Made by a program: the position numbers and the translations under genes. The notes under the pieces are model-generated. The model was not told where the DNA came from. It did not search any database and worked only from the letters and a program-made list of their open reading frames with translations. A DNA stretch of 22,680 nt, taken from positions 1 through 22,680 of IMG/VR virus record IMGVR_UViG_3300037119_006655; one strand, 5' to 3'. Shown here in pieces: positions 3,056 through 22,680 of this stretch (its first letter is position 1; each line of letters begins with the position of its first letter). This DNA comes from a virus.

Positions 3056-3719
3056 AGGGGCGCCCCGTCATGGCCTCGTATTCGGCCTCCCAGTCCTTGG
3101 CGTGGTCACAGTGCCGCGTCTCGGGAAACCACGGGCCGCCGAGCGTGTAGTGCAGCATCTTGGCGAGTGGATTCGGCGCGTACTCGCCCACGAGCCAGTT
3201 CCAGTCCAGCGGCAGCGCGCCCACCGACGGCGCCCAGTCGAGCCGATGCAGCTCGGCCGGCGTCGCGGTGTTCACGTACTCGGGCGTGAGCGGGCGGCAA
3301 TCGGGCCCGTAGAACACCATCAGGCTCGACCAGTTCTTGCGCGGGTAGGTCGTCTGCGGCTGGTCGAAAAACTTCGTGGCCGTGCGCGGCGTGTAGTCGT
3401 GCTGGCACACCGCCACCGCCGCGTTGATCGGCAGCGGGAGGTCGCGCAGATCGGCCCGACACAGCATGTCGCAATCGAGATAGAGGCTCCATCCCTCGTA
3501 GCCCGACAGATACGGCACGAGAAAGCGCGTCAGCGAGAAGGCCGTCGACTCCAGCGGGTCACGGTCGCGCTGGTAGAGCTCGCACGCGCGCAATTGCGGC
3601 TGCACCAGCGGCGTGATCGCCACGGGGATGCTCGCGCGCGTCAGGATCGAGTGGGCCAGCACGTGGTAGGCCACCGGCTCGCGCGCGTCGTACCCGATGA
3701 AGATCCGCAGCGGCGTCAT
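3045..3719 (-). CDS. Glycosyltransferase, GT8-like (GT-A fold)
   Basis: 224 aa. The N-terminus RIFIGYDAREPVAYHVLAHS is the opening of a GT8-like family common in phages and cyanobacterial or proteobacterial surface-glycan clusters. Residues 80-85 (YLDCDML) give the DxD motif that binds the metal and nucleotide-sugar phosphate. KNWSSLMVFYGPD around 128-140 is the usual 'W.S.M.F' acceptor-side strand, and the gene ends near HYTLGGPWF, a typical C-terminal motif. It transfers a sugar from a nucleotide donor to an unknown acceptor in the cytoplasm. Start ATG 3719 overlaps the stop of the DUF115-methyltransferase gene (ATGA), so the two enzymes are made together. I infer action on a virion or host-surface glycan. 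Confidence 0.8.
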   Translation of the reverse strand: MTPLRIFIGYDAREPVAYHVLAHSILTRASIPVAITPLVQPQLRACELYQRDRDPLESTAFSLTRFLVPYLSGYEGWSLYLDCDMLCRADLRDLPLPINAAVAVCQHDYTPRTATKFFDQPQTTYPRKNWSSLMVFYGPDCRPLTPEYVNTATPAELHRLDWAPSVGALPLDWNWLVGEYAPNPLAKMLHYTLGGPWFPETRHCDHAKDWEAEYEAMTGRPYGE

Positions 3720-5083
3720 GCGCTCGTCCCCGCCTCGAGGCTCGGCGTCCCCCGCGGCGCCACGAGCACGAACAGCTCCGGCCCCCGCTCGAAGATCCGC
3801 GCGACCGAGAAGTGCGCCTCGAGCCGCGCCTTCCACCACGCCTTCGGCTGGACAATCAGGTGCGTGTTCCGCCCGTCCGGCAGCGTTTTCGTCGCCGGCT
3901 GCGTGTTGATCGTGAGGAACCCGATGTGCCGGATGCAGCGCACGAGATCGCACAGCACGCCCTCGAGGTGCTCCGGCTCGATGTGCTCGAGCACGTCCGT
4001 CGCCACCACGAGATCGGCCGGGCGCGGCGGCGTGTCCTTGCCCGGCACGGCCGGGTCGTACTCCCAGATCGGGAACGGGAGCGCCTGCGCAAGCAGCCCC
4101 TTGCCGCAGCCGTAGTCGAGCACCGTGGTCGTCTTCAGCTCGGCCGCCAGCTTGGCCACCATGTCGGCGTGGCGCGCGCCGCCCACCCCGAAATACAGGT
4201 TCTCCGCGTGGAGCGTCGCGTTCAGCGCCCGGTACTCGGGGCTGATGACCGGGGGCTTGCTGGTGCAGAGCATCGCAATGCCCTTGGCGGGCGCGCGCAC
4301 CCAGTGGCGCGCGAGGTGCTGCACGAGGCCCTCCCCATGAAACGTGGCCGTCACGTCCACGAGCTGCGTTAGCTCATGCAGCGTCTGCCGCGCGCAGTCC
4401 ATGAAGGCCGCGGTGGTCTGGTAGACCGTGCCGGCGTCGGGACACCCGGGCTCGGCGCAATACGTGACCGCCTGCGCGCCGGGGGCCTGGTTGGGATGCG
4501 CGCCCGCGTGCTTGCCCGTGGGCCCCTCGCACCCGTCCATGCCGAAGACGTGTAGGTCGCGGTAGCCGAGCATCCGCGCCATCGCCAGCGCCCGGAGCCC
4601 CGCATTCGCCCCGCCCGTGACCGCCCACTCGCCCGGCGGCAGCAGGCGCAGGCCGCTCTCGGTCGGGTCGAACACGTGCCACAGTTCGACGCGCGCATCG
4701 GCCAGGTGGTCGAAGAGGCGCGGGTGGCAGGCCGAGGCGAGCAGATACGTCGTGGCCGGCGACGGCGGGCCGAGGAGGTCCACCTTGTGCGGGCGGGGGT
4801 CCACGTCCAGATGCCACGTGGGCACGATCCCGCGCTCGAGCAGAAAGCGATGCGCGCCCGAGCACGTGAGGATGGCCGCGTAGTCGCGAAGATCCGACCA
4901 GGTGTCCGCCAGGCTCGGCCCGTACCCGACGACCGCGATTGGCCCGTCCTGGAAGCGCGTGGCGTCGTACTGCAACCGCGCGATCGGCCGAGCGAGCGCG
5001 GACTGGATCTGGAGATCCCGCAGCCACGTCGGGATGCAGTAGCCCACCGTGAGGGGCTGCGTGATGTCGAGGGGCGCGCTCAA
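3716..5083 (-). CDS. DUF115 (Maf/MptE-like) domain fused to class I SAM methyltransferase
   Basis: 455 aa, start TTG at 5083 overlapping the fibre stop (TTGA) with a GAGG site five bases upstream. Residues about 45-260 show the DUF115 pattern: VVGYGPSL (51-58), HLDVDPR (91-97) and GGANAGLRALAMARMLGYRD with FGMD (157-183). Relatives include flagellin Maf glycosyltransferases and the archaeal MptE pterin enzyme. A short insertion has CAEPGC. Residues about 280-445 form a class I methyltransferase: VLDYGCGKG (321-329, SAM-binding motif I), the acidic strand end EYD, and ATDVLEH (361-367), the motif of 'methyltransferase type 11/12' sugar and lipid enzymes. Immediate coupling to a Ser-rich fibre and a GT8-like enzyme suggests transfer and methylation of sugars on virion protein; this is inference. 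Confidence 0.8.
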   Translation of the reverse strand: MSAPLDITQPLTVGYCIPTWLRDLQIQSALARPIARLQYDATRFQDGPIAVVGYGPSLADTWSDLRDYAAILTCSGAHRFLLERGIVPTWHLDVDPRPHKVDLLGPPSPATTYLLASACHPRLFDHLADARVELWHVFDPTESGLRLLPPGEWAVTGGANAGLRALAMARMLGYRDLHVFGMDGCEGPTGKHAGAHPNQAPGAQAVTYCAEPGCPDAGTVYQTTAAFMDCARQTLHELTQLVDVTATFHGEGLVQHLARHWVRAPAKGIAMLCTSKPPVISPEYRALNATLHAENLYFGVGGARHADMVAKLAAELKTTTVLDYGCGKGLLAQALPFPIWEYDPAVPGKDTPPRPADLVVATDVLEHIEPEHLEGVLCDLVRCIRHIGFLTINTQPATKTLPDGRNTHLIVQPKAWWKARLEAHFSVARIFERGPELFVLVAPRGTPSLEAGTSA

Positions 5084-15237: not shown

Positions 15238-15417
15238 CTACCCTGTAGCCCGCGGCGCGGAGGATTTCAAGATGTGGCGTGTGCGCCACAGGCGGTACAA
15301 GCTCGAGCGGTCGATGCCGGCGAGCTTCGCCGCGCCGCGCATGGACCCCGCCTTCGCGCGCAGCTCCTCGATCTTTTCGATGCGGCGCTCGATCTCCGCG
15401 CGGCGAATCGGTGTCAC
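15238..15417 (-). CDS. 59-aa Fis-type (HTH_8-like) DNA-binding protein
   Basis: Start GTG at 15417 overlaps the portal stop (GTGA), and the stop TAG is at 15238. The product begins VTPIRRAEIERRIEKIEELR, then SMRGAAKLAGIDRSSLYRLWRTRH (residues about 25-48). This matches the Fis/NtrC C-terminal helix-turn-helix (G....AA..LGI.RSSLYR.). The N-terminal helix is charged and could dimerise. At 59 residues it is shorter than Fis (98 aa) and consists of little more than the HTH. It may regulate late genes or help recognise packaging DNA. It is easily missed because it is short and starts with GTG. Confidence 0.75.
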   Translation of the reverse strand: MTPIRRAEIERRIEKIEELRAKAGSMRGAAKLAGIDRSSLYRLWRTRHILKSSAPRATG

Positions 15418-17768
15418 TGCGCGTTGCGTTCCATTTCCGCTTGCTCACCATCCATCCGCGAGGGCGGCTCGGGCCCGCCCTGCGTCGGCCCCTGCATCCC
15501 GCCGGGATTGGACAGGAACCCGCTCGTGGGCGCCGCGCCGGCGTTCATCTGCATCTGGCGGTACGCCGCCTGCATCGCGAGCTGCACGTGCTCCGAGTGC
15601 TTCTTCTCCACGAGCTTTTGGACCGGCTTCGGGAGCTGCTGCGAGGCGTCGCCCTTCAGCCATTCGCCCAGCTCGCGCACGAACGTGGGGTGCCCGTCCA
15701 CATCCGGCCGCACCTCGGGCAGCTCGAGCCCCTGCTGGGTCGCGGCGCCCGCGAGCTGGGTGTAGGTGGCGGGCGGCAGCGGCTGCGCGATCAGGCCGGC
15801 CTGCGCCTGCTGCATCGAGGCCTGCTGGATCTGCTCGGCCTGCGCCAGGAGTCCGCCGAGGAGCTGGACGGCGGCGGGATCGGCCGCGAGCGCCTCGAAC
15901 GTCTCGATTTGCTTGGCGGCGGTCTCCGCATCGGCCTTCATCGACGACAGCCAGTCCGTGCGGCCGAACGCGGCCAGCCATTTCTCGCGGATCTCGGGAT
16001 CGCTCGGATCGATCACGCGATTGGCGCTCAACTGCTCCAATTCGGCCCGGTCCACGAGCGTGGAGCGCGGCGCCGCCCCTTCCGCCTCGGCCACCACGTC
16101 AATCCGGCCCGTGAGGTCGGACGCCAGGAACTTTTCGATGCGCCAGCGGCTGCCGCGCCCCTGAATCTTGTGCAGGCGCTCCTCCGTCACGAATTGCCGG
16201 AAGATCGCCAGGGCCTGGCGCGCCCACTCGGCCCACGCCTGGCTCCACAGGATGAACATCGACCCGAACCGCCCATTGATGCGCTCCTGGATCATCTGCA
16301 GCGCAATCCCCGCGCTCACCCCCGGCGGGCGGTCGCCTTTCAGCAGGGAGAAGGTGGCGGCAATCTCCTCAAAGTCCGAATCGATCACCTGGAGCCACGT
16401 GATGAGCCCGTTCGGAATGCCCGCGCCCTGCACGCGCTCGGGCTTGGCGTGGCCGGGGCCGAGGGCGTTGTATTCGATGATCTGCCCCGGATCGCCCGTG
16501 AACTGCTTGATGTTGGCGCCCGACGGCACCGTCCAGACGGGATTCGCCGTCCGCATGATGAGCCGCAGGATGAGATAGCAGAGCTGATTGCGCTCGACCT
16601 GCTTGCTCGCGAGGTCGTCGGCGACGGTTTTTGACCAGAGCGAGCCGGGGACCAGGCGCGTGGGGAAATACGTCATGGGCAGCATCGGGCCGCGCTCGTC
16701 GTGATACGGCAACGGGCCCATGTGCATCACCTGGGTGCCGCCGAGGATAATCAGGAGCAGCCCCTCGGGATAGGCCCGCGTCGGACGGCTCCAGTACCAG
16801 CCTTCACTCACGCGCCGCTGGCCGCCGGCCGGGCGGCCGAAGGGCTGCGCGCCGCGGGCCCCCGTATCCTCGTGCATGTAGCCCGCGAGCGTCGGCAATT
16901 GCTCCTGATAGTGCTCACCCATCGTGCCGCCGAGGTCGGCGCCGATGCCGCGGGCGGCCTCGCCCCAGCGCTCGAGCGCGTCGGCGGCGCTGAGCGACTT
17001 TTCCCGGTAGTAGTCGGGTACCTCCTGCCATTGCGAATAGCTGGCGTCAAACCACATCTCGAAGAGCGACACCACGTCGCAGTACATCGTGCCGATGGGC
17101 ACCTCGGTGCCGACCGGCTCGCCCGCGTCGTCGACCGCGGGCTCGGTCGGGCCCCCGCACGCGGCGCACTCGGGCGTCTTCTGCGGCGGGCCCGTCGCGC
17201 CGCACGCGAGGCACCGATCATCTTGCTGAAGGCGCATCCCGTGCTGCGGGGAGGGGTCGTAGCCCGTCTCGATCCACGCGCCGCCCGTGAAGCCCGCCCA
17301 GTGCGCGAGCACCTGGCACAGCAGGCGGATATTCACCTCCTCCTCGATCACCTCGATCGCGCGGGAGGCGACTTCCGCGGTCGCGCGGTCCTCGGGCGCG
17401 CTCGTCGCCGGGCGGAACGAGGGCGTGGGCTCGATGCGCGCGAGGACGGACACGTAGGCGCCCATCGTGCTGCTGAATCGGTTCGTGGGAATGATCCGCG
17501 GCCCGCGCATCTGCACCGGGCGCCACGCATTGGCCGCGCGCGAGAACACGATGTCCTGGTGCCCGCGCTCGAATAAGATATTGCGCCAGGCGTTGCGCAC
17601 GAAGCCCTCGCGCCCGCGGCCCCACTCCGTTTTCTTCTCGCGCACCATCGCCAGCGCCGCCGCCTTGTCCTCGGCGGTGATGGTGGCGTAGTCGAGCGGC
17701 GTGGGCCCGGGGGCCTCCGGCGCGGCGGCGTCGGGATCGCTCAGCGAGGGGTCGGCGATGAGGGCCAT
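15414..17768 (-). CDS. Portal protein with zinc-ribbon insertion
   Basis: 784 aa, ATG 17768 directly after the preceding TAA. The N-terminal helical part (REKKTEWGRGREGFVRNAWRN, FERGHQDIVFSRAANAWRPV) and the region around residues 145-175 (LLCQVLAHWAGFTGGAWIETGYDPS) match phage portal proteins of the P22-like size class (P22 gp1 is 725 aa). A CLAC then CAAC pair (C187, C190, C201, C204) forms a CxxC-N10-CxxC zinc ribbon inserted right after that strand. The C-terminal 250 residues are helical and Gln-rich with LLAQAEQIQQASMQQAQAG and LVEKKHSEHVQLAMQAAYRQ, typical of the portal crown or barrel. Packaging motor docking site and head vertex are the expected role. Confidence 0.85.
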   Translation of the reverse strand: MALIADPSLSDPDAAAPEAPGPTPLDYATITAEDKAAALAMVREKKTEWGRGREGFVRNAWRNILFERGHQDIVFSRAANAWRPVQMRGPRIIPTNRFSSTMGAYVSVLARIEPTPSFRPATSAPEDRATAEVASRAIEVIEEEVNIRLLCQVLAHWAGFTGGAWIETGYDPSPQHGMRLQQDDRCLACGATGPPQKTPECAACGGPTEPAVDDAGEPVGTEVPIGTMYCDVVSLFEMWFDASYSQWQEVPDYYREKSLSAADALERWGEAARGIGADLGGTMGEHYQEQLPTLAGYMHEDTGARGAQPFGRPAGGQRRVSEGWYWSRPTRAYPEGLLLIILGGTQVMHMGPLPYHDERGPMLPMTYFPTRLVPGSLWSKTVADDLASKQVERNQLCYLILRLIMRTANPVWTVPSGANIKQFTGDPGQIIEYNALGPGHAKPERVQGAGIPNGLITWLQVIDSDFEEIAATFSLLKGDRPPGVSAGIALQMIQERINGRFGSMFILWSQAWAEWARQALAIFRQFVTEERLHKIQGRGSRWRIEKFLASDLTGRIDVVAEAEGAAPRSTLVDRAELEQLSANRVIDPSDPEIREKWLAAFGRTDWLSSMKADAETAAKQIETFEALAADPAAVQLLGGLLAQAEQIQQASMQQAQAGLIAQPLPPATYTQLAGAATQQGLELPEVRPDVDGHPTFVRELGEWLKGDASQQLPKPVQKLVEKKHSEHVQLAMQAAYRQMQMNAGAAPTSGFLSNPGGMQGPTQGGPEPPSRMDGEQAEMERNAQ

Positions 17769-18143
17769 TTAGCGCTCCACTCCTTGCGCGTCGCCAATCG
17801 CGCCCAGCTCGGTCGAGCGGATCAGTTCCTCCAGCGTGCTCGGCATCCGCTCGGGCGCCAGCGGGCGCGTCGGGCCCGTGATGCCGCCGAGCCCCCGCTC
17901 GGCCAGGCGCTGATCGGTCGCCGTGTCGTTGCGCTGCCGCTCGGCGGTGTAGAGCAGCCGCCAGAACTCGACCTCGGCCTGCAGATGCGCGACGAAGGCG
18001 GCGCTGGGATCGCGCAGGCGCGCCACTTCCGCGTCGCGGTCGGCGCGCAGGCGGTCGAGCGCGGCGTCGAAGCGGGCGCGCTCGTAGTCGGCGAACCCAT
18101 AGCGCATCTGCGCGAGCTGCGCGTCGGTGACGAAGAGCTTCAT
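17769..18143 (-). CDS. Coiled-coil protein between terminase and portal, unknown function
   Basis: 124 aa from ATG 18143, overlapping the large terminase stop (ATGA). Residues 15-75 are helical and charged (FADYERARFDAALDRLRADRDAEVARLRD...LQAEVEFWRLLYTAERQRND). The second half is Pro/Gly-rich and contains STLEELIRSTELGAIGD. The stop is immediately followed by the portal ATG. No known domain recognised; presumably an assembly or packaging accessory. Confidence 0.65.
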   Translation of the reverse strand: MKLFVTDAQLAQMRYGFADYERARFDAALDRLRADRDAEVARLRDPSAAFVAHLQAEVEFWRLLYTAERQRNDTATDQRLAERGLGGITGPTRPLAPERMPSTLEELIRSTELGAIGDAQGVER

Positions 18144-19963
18144 CGGCCAATCTCCAGGAGCTGCGGGTCGAGCTGCCCGAGCGCTGCGGGGTCCAGCGTG
18201 CGCTCTGCCTGCCGCGCGCGATGCTGCTGCCAGCCGATGAGCAGACTCATGCGATCCAGGCCCCCCTGCCCGTTGGCCGCGCGGGCGGCGAGCACCTGCG
18301 CCTCCCACGCGCGCTGCTCCAGCACCTCGGGGTCGGCCCAGGACGCCGCGACGGCCGGCGTGTTCGGCTTGCCGCGCAGCTGATACAGATCGGCCACCGG
18401 GTCGAGGAGATCGTCGGATTCGTTTTCCTGGTCCATGCGGAACTTGTCCGCCTGGTCGATGAAGTCGGCCAGCGCCTCGCAGGACTCCAGCGCGTGGATC
18501 TGCTTCGCCATCCACGGGCCCTGGATGAGCCCGATGCGCTGCTGCTTGGTCCGCTGCGTGTCGCGCTCGAGCCCGAGGATCGGCAGATAGAAGCCCCGCC
18601 GGTCCCCCTCGTTAGTGAACACGTGGCGCATGCCCTTCTGAAACCCCGTCGCCTCGAAGCCGATCCGCTGCATCGGCGCCCCGCGCGCCTGGAAGTGCTC
18701 GACGAGATCAAACACCTTGCGCACGAGCGCCTCGTCGTCCCGGCGCGCCATCCACAGCTCGAGCAGCCACAGATCGCCGCGGTGATCGAAGCCGCCGACG
18801 GCGATGCCGGAATGATCCGCCCACTTGTGCAGGCTCTGCGCGGGATCGATCGCCATCGCCACCCACAGCGTGGACAGCGGCGGCGCGGCGCGCTCGAGCT
18901 GCAGATTCGGCGCGCCGGTGGGGTCCAGGCGCGGGAAATGCGCCGTCTCGGCCGACACCGGGTTGAGCAGATACTGCGCGTTGAAGTTGGACGGCTCGTT
19001 GTCGCGCTCCACGAGCAGTTCCAGGCGCGTCGTGTCGCCGGGGGGCCGGCGCAGGCAGAAGCGCTCGGGAAAGCTCACGGCCACCCACCCGTGCCCCGGC
19101 ACATCCCCCACGACGCCGTCCCGCACCGCGGGGTCGTCCGCCGTGCGCGGGGTCGTCTTTTCCCACGCCGCCTTGATGTAGATGCCCATCGGCAATTGCC
19201 CGCGCGCGTGCCGCGCGCGCTGCGCGGCGTAGGCGTCCGCATAGTGCCAGTGGGTGCCGACGAACTCCTTCGTCGCGCCGGGATCGAAGAGCGGGCGCGC
19301 CTTCATGAAAAAGTCCCACACCTTCGCGCGCTCGGCCTTCGTCCCGGAGTTCTCCTTGCCCACGCAATCGTCGAACACGCCGCCGTCGTAGTGCCGGCTC
19401 ACCAGCTCGCCCTCCACCCCGATCGTCTGGATGGTGGATTCGCGCAGATCGCGCCGGCTCCGCTGCACGGTGATCGCCCCTTGCGTCCATTCCAGGCCCG
19501 CTCGCGCGGGATCGCGCGGCAGAATCTCCGGGAAGAGGCCCAGCAAGAGATCGTTGCCGCTCAGATGCCCCTTGATGCCCGCCAGGAACCCCTCCGCGTT
19601 CTCCCCCTTGTTGCTCGCCAGCAAGATCCGCGTGTTCGGCCCGCACACCCGCCCGTGCCACCGCTGCTGGCACCACCACGTCGCCGGATCGGCCAGAATC
19701 CGCTGAATCACCGCCGCCGTCGTGATGATCGACGACTTGAAGAACCCGCGGCTGAGCAAATACAGATTTTCGTCGTAGCGCGTCGTCTGCATCCACGCGC
19801 ACAGCGGCTTGTGCAGCGTGTCGGTCAGCAGATTCGGCGTGAGATGCGCGTACAGGACCCGCCGCGCGAAGGCGTACAGATCCGTCTGGCACAGCATCCG
19901 CATCGCCGGCTTCGTCTGCGCCTCCGGCGTCGTCTTCGAGGCCGTCAGCACCGTCGGCGGCAT
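18140..19963 (-). CDS. Terminase large subunit
   Basis: 607 aa. Start ATG 19963 overlaps the upstream stop (TGATG). ATPase domain: Walker A-like SRGFFKSS (residues 71-78, in the 'PRG..KS' position of phage terminases) and Walker B GGVFDDCV (194-201) with acidic residues D198 and D199. Nuclease domain, RNase H-like: MAIDPAQS (D373), DHSGIAVGG, FEATGF (E437) and DDLLDPVADL (518-527), giving the acidic metal-binding triad. It cuts concatemeric DNA and drives packaging at the portal. The portal gene lies one gene away. The N-terminal 60 residues precede the ATPase core and probably bind the small subunit. Confidence 0.9.
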   Translation of the reverse strand: MPPTVLTASKTTPEAQTKPAMRMLCQTDLYAFARRVLYAHLTPNLLTDTLHKPLCAWMQTTRYDENLYLLSRGFFKSSIITTAAVIQRILADPATWWCQQRWHGRVCGPNTRILLASNKGENAEGFLAGIKGHLSGNDLLLGLFPEILPRDPARAGLEWTQGAITVQRSRRDLRESTIQTIGVEGELVSRHYDGGVFDDCVGKENSGTKAERAKVWDFFMKARPLFDPGATKEFVGTHWHYADAYAAQRARHARGQLPMGIYIKAAWEKTTPRTADDPAVRDGVVGDVPGHGWVAVSFPERFCLRRPPGDTTRLELLVERDNEPSNFNAQYLLNPVSAETAHFPRLDPTGAPNLQLERAAPPLSTLWVAMAIDPAQSLHKWADHSGIAVGGFDHRGDLWLLELWMARRDDEALVRKVFDLVEHFQARGAPMQRIGFEATGFQKGMRHVFTNEGDRRGFYLPILGLERDTQRTKQQRIGLIQGPWMAKQIHALESCEALADFIDQADKFRMDQENESDDLLDPVADLYQLRGKPNTPAVAASWADPEVLEQRAWEAQVLAARAANGQGGLDRMSLLIGWQQHRARQAERTLDPAALGQLDPQLLEIGR

Positions 19964-20923: not shown

Positions 20924-21109
20924 TCACCACGCGCTAGGCCTCGGGCCTGCTGGGCGGGTTATGGGCGTGGCTGAGCTCGCGGAACCCGACTCCTGAGCCT
21001 GCGCCAGCCGGATGGTCATCAGGGCGCGCCAGCGCACGTCAGTGACGCACAGATGGCGGAGACACGCCTGCTGGATACTCACCCGGCACGCGCGCTCGGT
21101 GTCGGTCAC
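20924..21109 (-). CDS. 61-aa ORF after small terminase, unknown function
   Basis: GTG at 21109 overlaps the small-terminase stop (GTGA), a coupling pattern used throughout this region. The product starts VTDTERACRVSIQQACLRHL and continues CVTDVRWRALMTIRLAQAQE, then a Ser/Pro-rich tail. Two helices with four cysteines or hydrophobic residues; no known domain. The tail could simply be the run-out of the frame. Confidence 0.5.
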   Translation of the reverse strand: MTDTERACRVSIQQACLRHLCVTDVRWRALMTIRLAQAQESGSASSATPITRPAGPRPSAW

Positions 21110-21663
21110 GGCGTCTGCGTGGCGTCCGGCAGCGCGGGGAGGGGGCCATGCGCCAGCAGCTGCTGGGTGGGCTCGGTGAGGTCGCCGAGCATGGCACGGA
21201 GGACGGCGGCGATGTCGACACCGGGCACTTCCGCGGTCATGTTCAAGCTGACCACGGCGTGCTTCTCGATGTACTTGGCGGGCTCCTCCGCCTTGTTCGT
21301 CACGATGGCGCCGACGGGATTGCCGGTGGTGCGCGTGTTGTGCATGAGGCTGTAGCGGCAGCGGGCGCGGTAGAACTCGAGCGCCGCGGTCACTTCCGCC
21401 GCGAAGGCGGGATCATCGGCCACGTAGTCGTAGAGGCTGGAGCGGCCGATGCGGGCGTACATCGCCGCGGCGGACTTCTCGCCGTAGGTGGCGAGGTGCT
21501 TCAGGAAGGGGTCGTACAGCTCGCGACGATGCGGGTGAGCGGGCGGGACTTCCAGAAACGCGATGAACTCGGGGAAGTCTTCCCACTCCCAGGGGCTCTT
21601 AGGCGGCGTGGGTGTCCGACGGGCACCGGGGCGGACCAGTTCGGGCACCACGTCTATGTCCAT
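21106..21663 (-). CDS. Terminase small subunit
   Basis: 185 aa. A Pro-rich N-terminus (residues 10-30) is followed by a helical domain (PWEWEDFPEFIAFLEVPPAH). Residues about 62-90 (EKSAAAMYARIGRSSLYDYVADDPAFAAEV) are the helix-turn-helix and adjoining 'DP.F' loop typical of TerS proteins that bind the pac or cos site. The middle contains a long helix (LEFYRARCRYSLMHNTRT), and the C-terminus is Pro/Gly-rich, as expected for the part contacting the large subunit. It is the first gene of the minus-strand cluster, 0.4 kb from the divergent genes. The start lacks a strong Shine-Dalgarno site. The large subunit is four small ORFs downstream. Confidence 0.7.
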   Translation of the reverse strand: MDIDVVPELVRPGARRTPTPPKSPWEWEDFPEFIAFLEVPPAHPHRRELYDPFLKHLATYGEKSAAAMYARIGRSSLYDYVADDPAFAAEVTAALEFYRARCRYSLMHNTRTTGNPVGAIVTNKAEEPAKYIEKHAVVSLNMTAEVPGVDIAAVLRAMLGDLTEPTQQLLAHGPLPALPDATQTP

Positions 21664-21780
21664 GCGTGAGGACTACCACGGGGAGGGGTCGGTGGTCAAT
21701 GTCTTACCGCGGGGCGTGGGCAGAGACGGCGCAGACCGAACATGGTGAGGCGCCTACGGCAGTGAGGTAGAAGCTTCTTC

Positions 21781-21809
21781 ATTATGCGAGGGGTCGGCTG
21801 GCGGGCGAA
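21781..21809 (-). promoter_or_regulatory. Candidate promoter of the minus-strand cluster
   Basis: On the minus strand TTCGCC (-35, 21804-21809), 17-bp spacer, CATAAT (-10, 21781-21786; five of six consensus bases). The -35 box is poor. The expected start is about 21774, giving a leader of about 110 nt before the small terminase ATG. Confidence 0.35.
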
Positions 21810-21833
21810 TTGACGCGGTGTGTTGCGCAGGCC

Positions 21834-21843
21834 GGTGGTAGTC
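21834..21843 (-). promoter_or_regulatory. Outer half-site 0 of the operator array
   Basis: Minus-strand GACTACCACC matches the arm GACTACTACA of site 2 at 8 of 10 positions. Its implied centre lies 32 bp from site 1, mirroring the 33-bp step between site 2 and half-site 3. Confidence 0.35.
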
Positions 21844-21855
21844 GCTGGCGCTGGC

Positions 21856-21875
21856 AACCACTACCTGTAGTGGTC
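21856..21875. promoter_or_regulatory. Operator-like inverted repeat, site 1
   Basis: AACCACTACCTGTAGTGGTC; the inner arms ACCACTAC and GTAGTGGT are perfect inverted repeats around CT. The right arm TGTAGTGGTC is identical to that of site 2, 55 bp away. A dimeric repressor or activator site is the usual explanation. Confidence 0.65.
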
Positions 21876-21910
21876 GAGGCGGGTGATTTCTGGCCCATTC
21901 TGCCATGCGT

Positions 21911-21930
21911 GACTACTACATGTAGTGGTC
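21911..21930. promoter_or_regulatory. Operator-like inverted repeat, site 2
   Basis: GACTACTACATGTAGTGGTC: 10-bp arms with a single mismatch and a perfect 12-bp core (ACTACATGTAGT). It shares the whole right arm with site 1. Confidence 0.7.
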
Positions 21931-21943
21931 GCTCTGCTGCCAT

Positions 21944-21963
21944 ACCCACTACATCTTGTCGGT
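21944..21963 (+). promoter_or_regulatory. Degenerate operator, half-site 3
   Basis: Contains CCACTACA, the inner left arm of the consensus, followed by a weak right arm (five of ten positions). It is 33 bp from site 2 and about 20 bp upstream of the plus promoter's -35 box. Confidence 0.45.
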
Positions 21964-21973
21964 ACGATTCTCC

Positions 21974-22003
21974 TTGACGAAGTAGCCAAGGCCTTGGTAA
22001 TGT
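21974..22003 (+). promoter_or_regulatory. Plus-strand promoter with palindromic spacer
   Basis: TTGACG (-35, 21974-21979), 18-bp spacer, TAATGT (-10, 21998-22003). The spacer contains the perfect 12-bp palindrome CCAAGGCCTTGG (21986-21997) abutting the -10 box, where a bound protein would block polymerase. Start expected near 22010; the first good ATG is 22091. Confidence 0.5.
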
Positions 22004-22090
22004 ACGGTCATGGACAACGCACACGGGCCCGCCGGAGGCTCCCACCCCCGACGGACCCTCACCCCAACCCGATCCCTGGAGGATCAGATC

Positions 22091-22348
22091 ATGGCTACCA
22101 AGCACGCTACCACGAAGCGGAGCCGCAGCGCCCTCTATGGGCAGTTCCTCACCGCGCTGGAAGCCTTGGGCGCGACTCTCTGCCCCACGTGCGGGGACTA
22201 CGCGATCCATACGCAGCCCTGCCCCGGCTGGTCGGCGAAGTTTGGCGGGGGCGGCGACTGCCTCAACCGCCCGTACCGGATGGAGCTGGCCGGCGGGCTC
22301 GAGGTGGAAGAGATCGAGGCCGAAGTGCTGAACGCGCAGGCGGCATAG
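22091..22348 (+). CDS. 85-aa Cys-rich (zinc-ribbon-like) small protein
   Basis: ATG 22091 preceded by GGAGG eight bases upstream; the in-frame ATG at 22010 lacks a site and lies in the promoter region. The N-terminus is basic (MATKHATTKRSRSALYG), followed by LCPTCGDYAIHTQPCPGW and GGDCLNRPY: cysteines at 31, 34, 44 and 57 and H40 can form a zinc site. The C-terminal part is acidic (LEVEEIEAEVLNAQ). First gene rightward of the divergent control region, so probably an early gene product, such as a small regulator or host-modifying protein. Confidence 0.7.
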   Translation: MATKHATTKRSRSALYGQFLTALEALGATLCPTCGDYAIHTQPCPGWSAKFGGGGDCLNRPYRMELAGGLEVEEIEAEVLNAQAA

Positions 22349-22357
22349 GAGGCCTCC

Positions 22358-22680
22358 ATGAGCGCCTTCATCGTCAGCGCCCGCCATATCGACTACCTGC
22401 TGACCGCTGGCCTGCGCTTGGACACCAACTACCCCTTGTCGTGGTCCATCAAGCCCACGGGTGAGCCCATGCCCGACCCAAGCGAGGACTTCCAGGCGTA
22501 CATCGCCTGGACTACGCGCCAGCGCACCGAACTGCGCAGCGACACAGCCGATCAGGTCGGGGCCATGCTCGTGAACGAGAATCGCTTGAGCGTGAACGCG
22601 CGCTACCAGGAAGACGAGATTGAGGAGTTCTACACCTTCACGCCCTACCGGGGCAAGGTGACGGCCGTCCAGACGCTCCT
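22358..22680 (+). CDS. Unknown conserved phage protein, C-terminus beyond window
   Basis: ATG 22358 with AGGAGG five bases upstream, ten bases after the previous stop; open for 107 codons to the edge. It begins MSAFIVSARHIDYLLTAGLR and includes TADQVGAMLVNENRLSVNARY, then FYTFTPYRGKVTAVQTL. This looks like a small-protein family found on actinobacterial and other high-GC phages and plasmids, whose function I do not know. The pair with the Cys-rich gene forms the start of a plus-strand operon. Confidence 0.7.
   Translation, partial: MSAFIVSARHIDYLLTAGLRLDTNYPLSWSIKPTGEPMPDPSEDFQAYIAWTTRQRTELRSDTADQVGAMLVNENRLSVNARYQEDEIEEFYTFTPYRGKVTAVQTL

Follow-up and report, generated by a model that had tools for sequence, protein, structure and literature searches.

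Gene arms and palindromic sites of the divergent spacer

The window, by which we mean the whole stretch of DNA analysed, is the complete virus record IMGVR_UViG_3300037119_006655 (22,680 bases), itself a fragment. A leftward arm headed by a probable terminase small subunit gene diverges from two small rightward genes, and the spacer between the arms is lower in G+C (60%) than the record (69%). The relevant features, with coordinates in the window, are as follows.

15414..17768, minus strand: portal protein (phrog_156, E = 1.6e-15)
18140..19963, minus strand: terminase large subunit (phrog_38, E = 3.4e-51)
21106..21663, minus strand: probable terminase small subunit, heading the leftward arm (phrog_4044, E = 1.7e-5)
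21834..21843, no strand assigned: weak left half-site GGTGGTAGTC of doubtful function, centre 21833.5, 32 bp left of box A
21856..21875, no strand assigned: box A, NrdR-like, AACCACTACCTGTAGTGGTC, centre 21865.5; 21.7 bits with the viral box matrix and a single-box match to the viral pair model
21911..21930, no strand assigned: box B, NrdR-like, GACTACTACATGTAGTGGTC, centre 21920.5; 24.3 bits, left member of a proper pair
21944..21963, no strand assigned: box C, NrdR-like, ACCCACTACATCTTGTCGGT, centre 21953.5; 17.1 bits, paired with box B as the right member, at 33 bp
21974..22003, plus strand: possible rightward promoter, TTGACG-N18-TAATGT, read by eye and under the promoter-scan threshold
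22091..22348, plus strand: rightward gene 1, 85 aa, with four cysteines, a potential zinc ribbon
22358..22680, plus strand: rightward gene 2, an ORF with a GGAGG site, truncated by the record end

The start at 22091 was picked on account of a GGAGG site at 22078-22082. Family searches gave no convincing match for either rightward gene, and no relatives of these two ORFs were found. Relatives of the terminase genes occur in two contigs, with identical proteins, which end before the spacer. No ribonucleotide reductase (RNR) gene was found in the window, although one could lie further along the rightward arm, the record being a fragment. In the structural arm, an ORF at 3716-5083 combines MptE-like and methyltransferase family matches in one protein.

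A sequence-only reading of this DNA had described the spacer as an operator array of four elements, symmetric about 21893 and lying between divergent promoters. Its core is borne out by the sequences AACCACTACCTGTAGTGGTC and GACTACTACATGTAGTGGTC: boxes A and B are strong inverted repeats, their centres 55 bp apart, with the arm TGTAGTGGTC in common, and TGTAGTGGTC is found nowhere else in the record. The right outward half-site proves to be more than a half-site, being a near-full third box (box C). The left one agrees with the half-site at 8 of 10 bases, a level that 0.3% of random window positions reach at that offset, but its score as a full box is -24 bits. Because this left element is so poor a box, the four-element symmetry hangs on one weak half-site, and the array comprises three sites, including one pair at 33 bp, instead of four in symmetry. 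As for the divergent promoters, the gene arms do diverge, but no sigma-70-type promoter reached threshold in a consensus scan. No terminator-like site, that is, a G+C-rich hairpin followed by a T run, occurs in 21300-22680.

One palindrome as good as these would be unremarkable (two with at least 9 of 10 pairs were observed in 22.7 kb, versus 2.7 expected); the improbable part is the recurrence of the same sequence. When the window was scanned with a matrix made from other viruses' boxes, the best position after boxes A-C reached 6.4 bits, and 1 Mb of random sequence matched in dinucleotide make-up held zero sites above 15 bits. Two places, 21660-21691 where the terminase small subunit gene starts and 21903-21931 at box B, have the string CCATGCGTGA with a box-like stretch after it. 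One could pass for a degenerate copy of the other; the copy at 21660-21691 scores -4.5 bits as a box.

Resemblance of the array to NrdR box pairs

The consensus CCACTACATGTAGTGG, together with the 33 bp spacing, suggested NrdR boxes, and the motif, CCACTACATSTWGTGG, matches the NrdR box, an identity for the array that is well supported at the level of sequence and geometry. NrdR tetramers bind two boxes approximately three helix turns apart, with symmetric GC pairs conserved in each box (PMC9110341). Pairs with 14-17 bp between boxes are bound well, and the gaps reported for NrdR pairs are 15-17 or approximately 26 bp (PMC12051234). The conserved C and G lie 4.5 bp either side of the centre in all of boxes A, B and C, and the 33 bp between the centres of boxes B and C falls within the range for NrdR pairs (14-17 bp between boxes, approximately 30-33 bp centre to centre). 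Box A lacks a good partner; the strong boxes A and B, separated by 55 bp, fall outside the pair spacings reported for NrdR. Looping, proposed in the sequence-only reading, is not supported, on that account and on account of the weak left element.

The array shares its palindrome, the C/G at 4.5 bp and the placing of two boxes approximately three helix turns apart with the bacterial pairs at S. coelicolor nrdRJ and nrdAB and at E. coli nrdHIEF and nrdAB (PMC9110341, PMC12051234, PMC12176259). It differs from them in being phage-borne, in having a third strong box at an atypical 55 bp, and in standing before terminase genes instead of RNR genes; its neighbours are the terminase arm and two small genes rather than an RNR or nrdR promoter.

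A sequence model was built on 28 viral pairs, with the window left out. Searched against the window with all filters off, it matched 21912-21959 at 30.4 bits (E = 5.2e-9), and beyond overlapping or single-box matches to the array, no window match fell under E = 1. The viral matrix likewise recovers bacterial NrdR promoters. In 9-10 kb stretches of E. coli K-12 the top matches are the pair before nrdH (31 bp) and the pair before nrdA (31 bp), and in a 9-10 kb stretch of Streptomyces the top pair precedes nrdR. The matrix returned no pair around nrdR in Microbacterium and Collinsella (L119 and L120), where the nrdR genes adjoin unrelated genes, or in Klebsiella phage Kp4866-6 (L122).

Run over 84,980 genomes of bacteria and archaea, a strict paired pattern hit three loci, each in Verrucomicrobia. 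At one of them the pair precedes a gene with NrdR Zn-ribbon and ATP-cone domains (nrdR), and at another it precedes an SMC gene. The model gave three matches at E < 0.001 in 59 Verrucomicrobia genomes, two of them in a genome already known. Since these matches are so few, the exact motif is not the usual form in that phylum. In two Verrucomicrobia genomes, an NrdR-like pair lies before a gene of approximately 1,260 aa (L023 near 7902 and L025 near 2484), which in L023 encodes an SMC protein.

Recurrence of the pairs in viruses and their neighbouring genes

A looser paired pattern found 36 stretches in viral contigs and a second pattern found 74, for a combined 83 loci in 36 clusters by tblastx. 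Pairs recur in many lineages, with a spacing of 31-33 bp in most viral clusters. Per cluster, the centre spacing was 32 bp in 19, 31 bp in nine, 30 bp in five, 33 bp in three, 34 bp in three, and 28 bp and 36 bp in one each, in a tally where one cluster can be entered under several spacings and to which the patterns admitted only 28-36 or 30-34 bp. One position of the first box, left unconstrained by the second pattern, nevertheless keeps the NrdR signature: C occurs 4.5 bp left of centre in 103 of 104 boxes. The siting is mostly intergenic: just three of the 28 clusters with enough flank have the pair wholly within an ORF of at least 100 aa, versus 20.2 expected at random positions. Two direct copies of TGTAGTGGTC were sought in viral contigs and turned up at 18 loci; most of these are GT-rich repeats, and the palindromes of the window are absent from all of them.

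Where a function could be assigned downstream of the pairs, it was mostly that of a late gene, and late genes (terminase, portal, scaffold, head protease, endolysin) follow the pairs in approximately eleven clusters. Replication and recombination genes are fewer. The loci are as follows.

Terminase: L028, L054, L104, L106 and L089, and L107 as a later gene
Portal: L034 and L039
Scaffold: L051 and L037
Head protease: L066, and weakly L092
Endolysin: L061 and L036
Replication or recombination: RusA in L042 and L033, a processivity factor in L083, and a helicase further on in L101

The bias of the pairs toward late genes is suggestive only, because the tally favours longer genes and is without a matched control.

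Cultured phages carry such pairs as well. The circular, 31 kb Pontimonas phage phiPsal1 (MG835450) has a pair at 47.5/79.5, 32 bp apart, shortly ahead of the small terminase gene (at 97). Its annotation includes no RNR, and a further pair of comparable score was not seen. Like the array, this pair is upstream of a small terminase gene in a phage without annotated RNR, but the terminase is unrelated, the pair is single, and it lies approximately 20 bp from the start codon versus approximately 250 bp. The T7-like Berlinvirus BA14 (L131) has pairs at 141.5/173.5, 8554.5/8586.5 and 39763.5/39795.5, and FE44 (L132) has the same arrangement: the pairs, 32-33 bp apart, lie in both terminal repeats and, in one case, within an early ORF. 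T7 (L133) has no pair. A palindrome that resembles an NrdR box follows gene 18 in T7 (GGCCACTACAGATAGTGGTC, centre 36841.5) and in BA14 (GGCCACTACATCTAGTGGTC, centre 36134.5). It may be an RNase III site. Because it is partnerless and may be such an RNA processing hairpin, it was kept out of the evidence for NrdR boxes.

NrdR as a candidate regulator of phage late genes

Our preferred reading, which we regard as fairly probable, is that the array consists of NrdR boxes (the pair 21920.5/21953.5 plus the strong site at 21865.5) through which host NrdR gates the terminase arm by dNTP state. NrdR, host-supplied as far as is visible, would bind the boxes when loaded with dATP and ATP and would repress transcription from the spacer, most likely that of the terminase arm. 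Repression would be lifted once phage replication had drained dATP, or once phage genomes outnumbered NrdR, and the late genes would then come on. The same boxes could act as a sponge, helping to derepress host ribonucleotide reductase genes. Loss of NrdR repression in infected cells is on record for the pneumococcal phage SpSL1, infection by which raises three host transcripts that have an NrdR site ahead of them (PMC6755750). The terminase arm is favoured as the putative controlled arm solely on the analogy of the other viruses; the pair itself is nearer the rightward arm, approximately 130 bp from the start at 22091 versus approximately 250 bp from the terminase arm. That position counts against the mechanism, as do the partnerless box A, the rarity of the strict motif in the Verrucomicrobia genomes searched, and the BA14 and FE44 pairs, which are not at late promoters.

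The BA14 and FE44 positions fit titration better than late-promoter control, and they are the first point in favour of a decoy function, in which the boxes do nothing but titrate NrdR, derepressing host ribonucleotide reductase for phage DNA synthesis while the neighbouring phage genes go unregulated. The rise of NrdR-site transcripts in SpSL1 infection would be expected here too, and an RNR is not seen in most of the viral records with boxes (among the 36 from the first viral scan, one has a class I or II RNR). Nevertheless, a decoy has no need of pairs that are strongly intergenic and often directly ahead of late operons, and three boxes per spacer are few for a sponge before replication. 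We therefore consider titration alone unlikely.

Phages commonly have self-regulated divergent operators, and the repressors of lambda-type and similar phages act at divergent operator arrays. The array resembles these in its palindromic sites repeated between divergent arms. It differs in that a metabolic sensor of the host would take the regulator's part, and no repressor gene was found beside it. The sites might still be operators of a phage regulator encoded beyond this fragment, either one whose sites have the same sequence by chance or a phage-encoded NrdR, such as the one annotated in cyanophage S-SRP02 (PMC8790148). Nevertheless, bacterial NrdR promoters show a matching motif and spacing, as do unrelated viruses, and an NrdR gene was found in none of the 28 pair-bearing viral records and not in the window, so we judge a phage regulator less probable again than titration. 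An operator array whose regulator has no gene in the window, as the sequence-only reading had it, is supported, with NrdR the likeliest regulator. The Fis-like protein that it offered as a candidate is not supported: the sole trace of that helix-turn-helix family scores 12.4 bits against a cut-off of 22.

Two further explanations have very little probability left. The sites could belong to a packaging signal (pac/cos region) bound by the terminase small subunit, given that the array is approximately 200-300 bp from that gene and that several other pairs adjoin terminase genes, but the motif is also found beside unrelated terminase families, beside portal, scaffold, lysis and replication genes, and at bacterial nrd genes, and sharing of this kind speaks against terminase binding sites. 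RNA hairpins (a terminator or RNase III sites) instead of DNA-binding sites are just as hard to credit: box B does fold well as RNA (-13.1 kcal/mol, z = -3.3) and the look-alike of T7 and BA14 has no partner, but boxes A and C fold no better than shuffles (z = -0.5 and -1.2), nothing terminator-like is present, and the 33 bp pair geometry would go unexplained.

Returning to host NrdR as the regulator, we propose, tentatively, a wider extension: many unrelated phages may have independently gained NrdR pairs at late promoters for packaging, head and lysis genes, with a dATP/ATP-sensing host repressor serving as a timer that lets late transcription start after replication has drained dNTPs or titrated NrdR. 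Searches of open-access full text brought up no publication describing NrdR boxes at late genes of phages, which is weak evidence of novelty, as most subscription journals lie outside that coverage. NrdR has so far been described as a repressor dedicated to ribonucleotide reductase genes. If phages do place its boxes at late promoters, the change from replicating to packaging would take its cue directly from the dNTP pool, and the phage copies would also relieve repression of host dNTP synthesis. The site pairs in dozens of otherwise unrelated phages suggest that phages read, or soak up, the host metabolic sensor NrdR.
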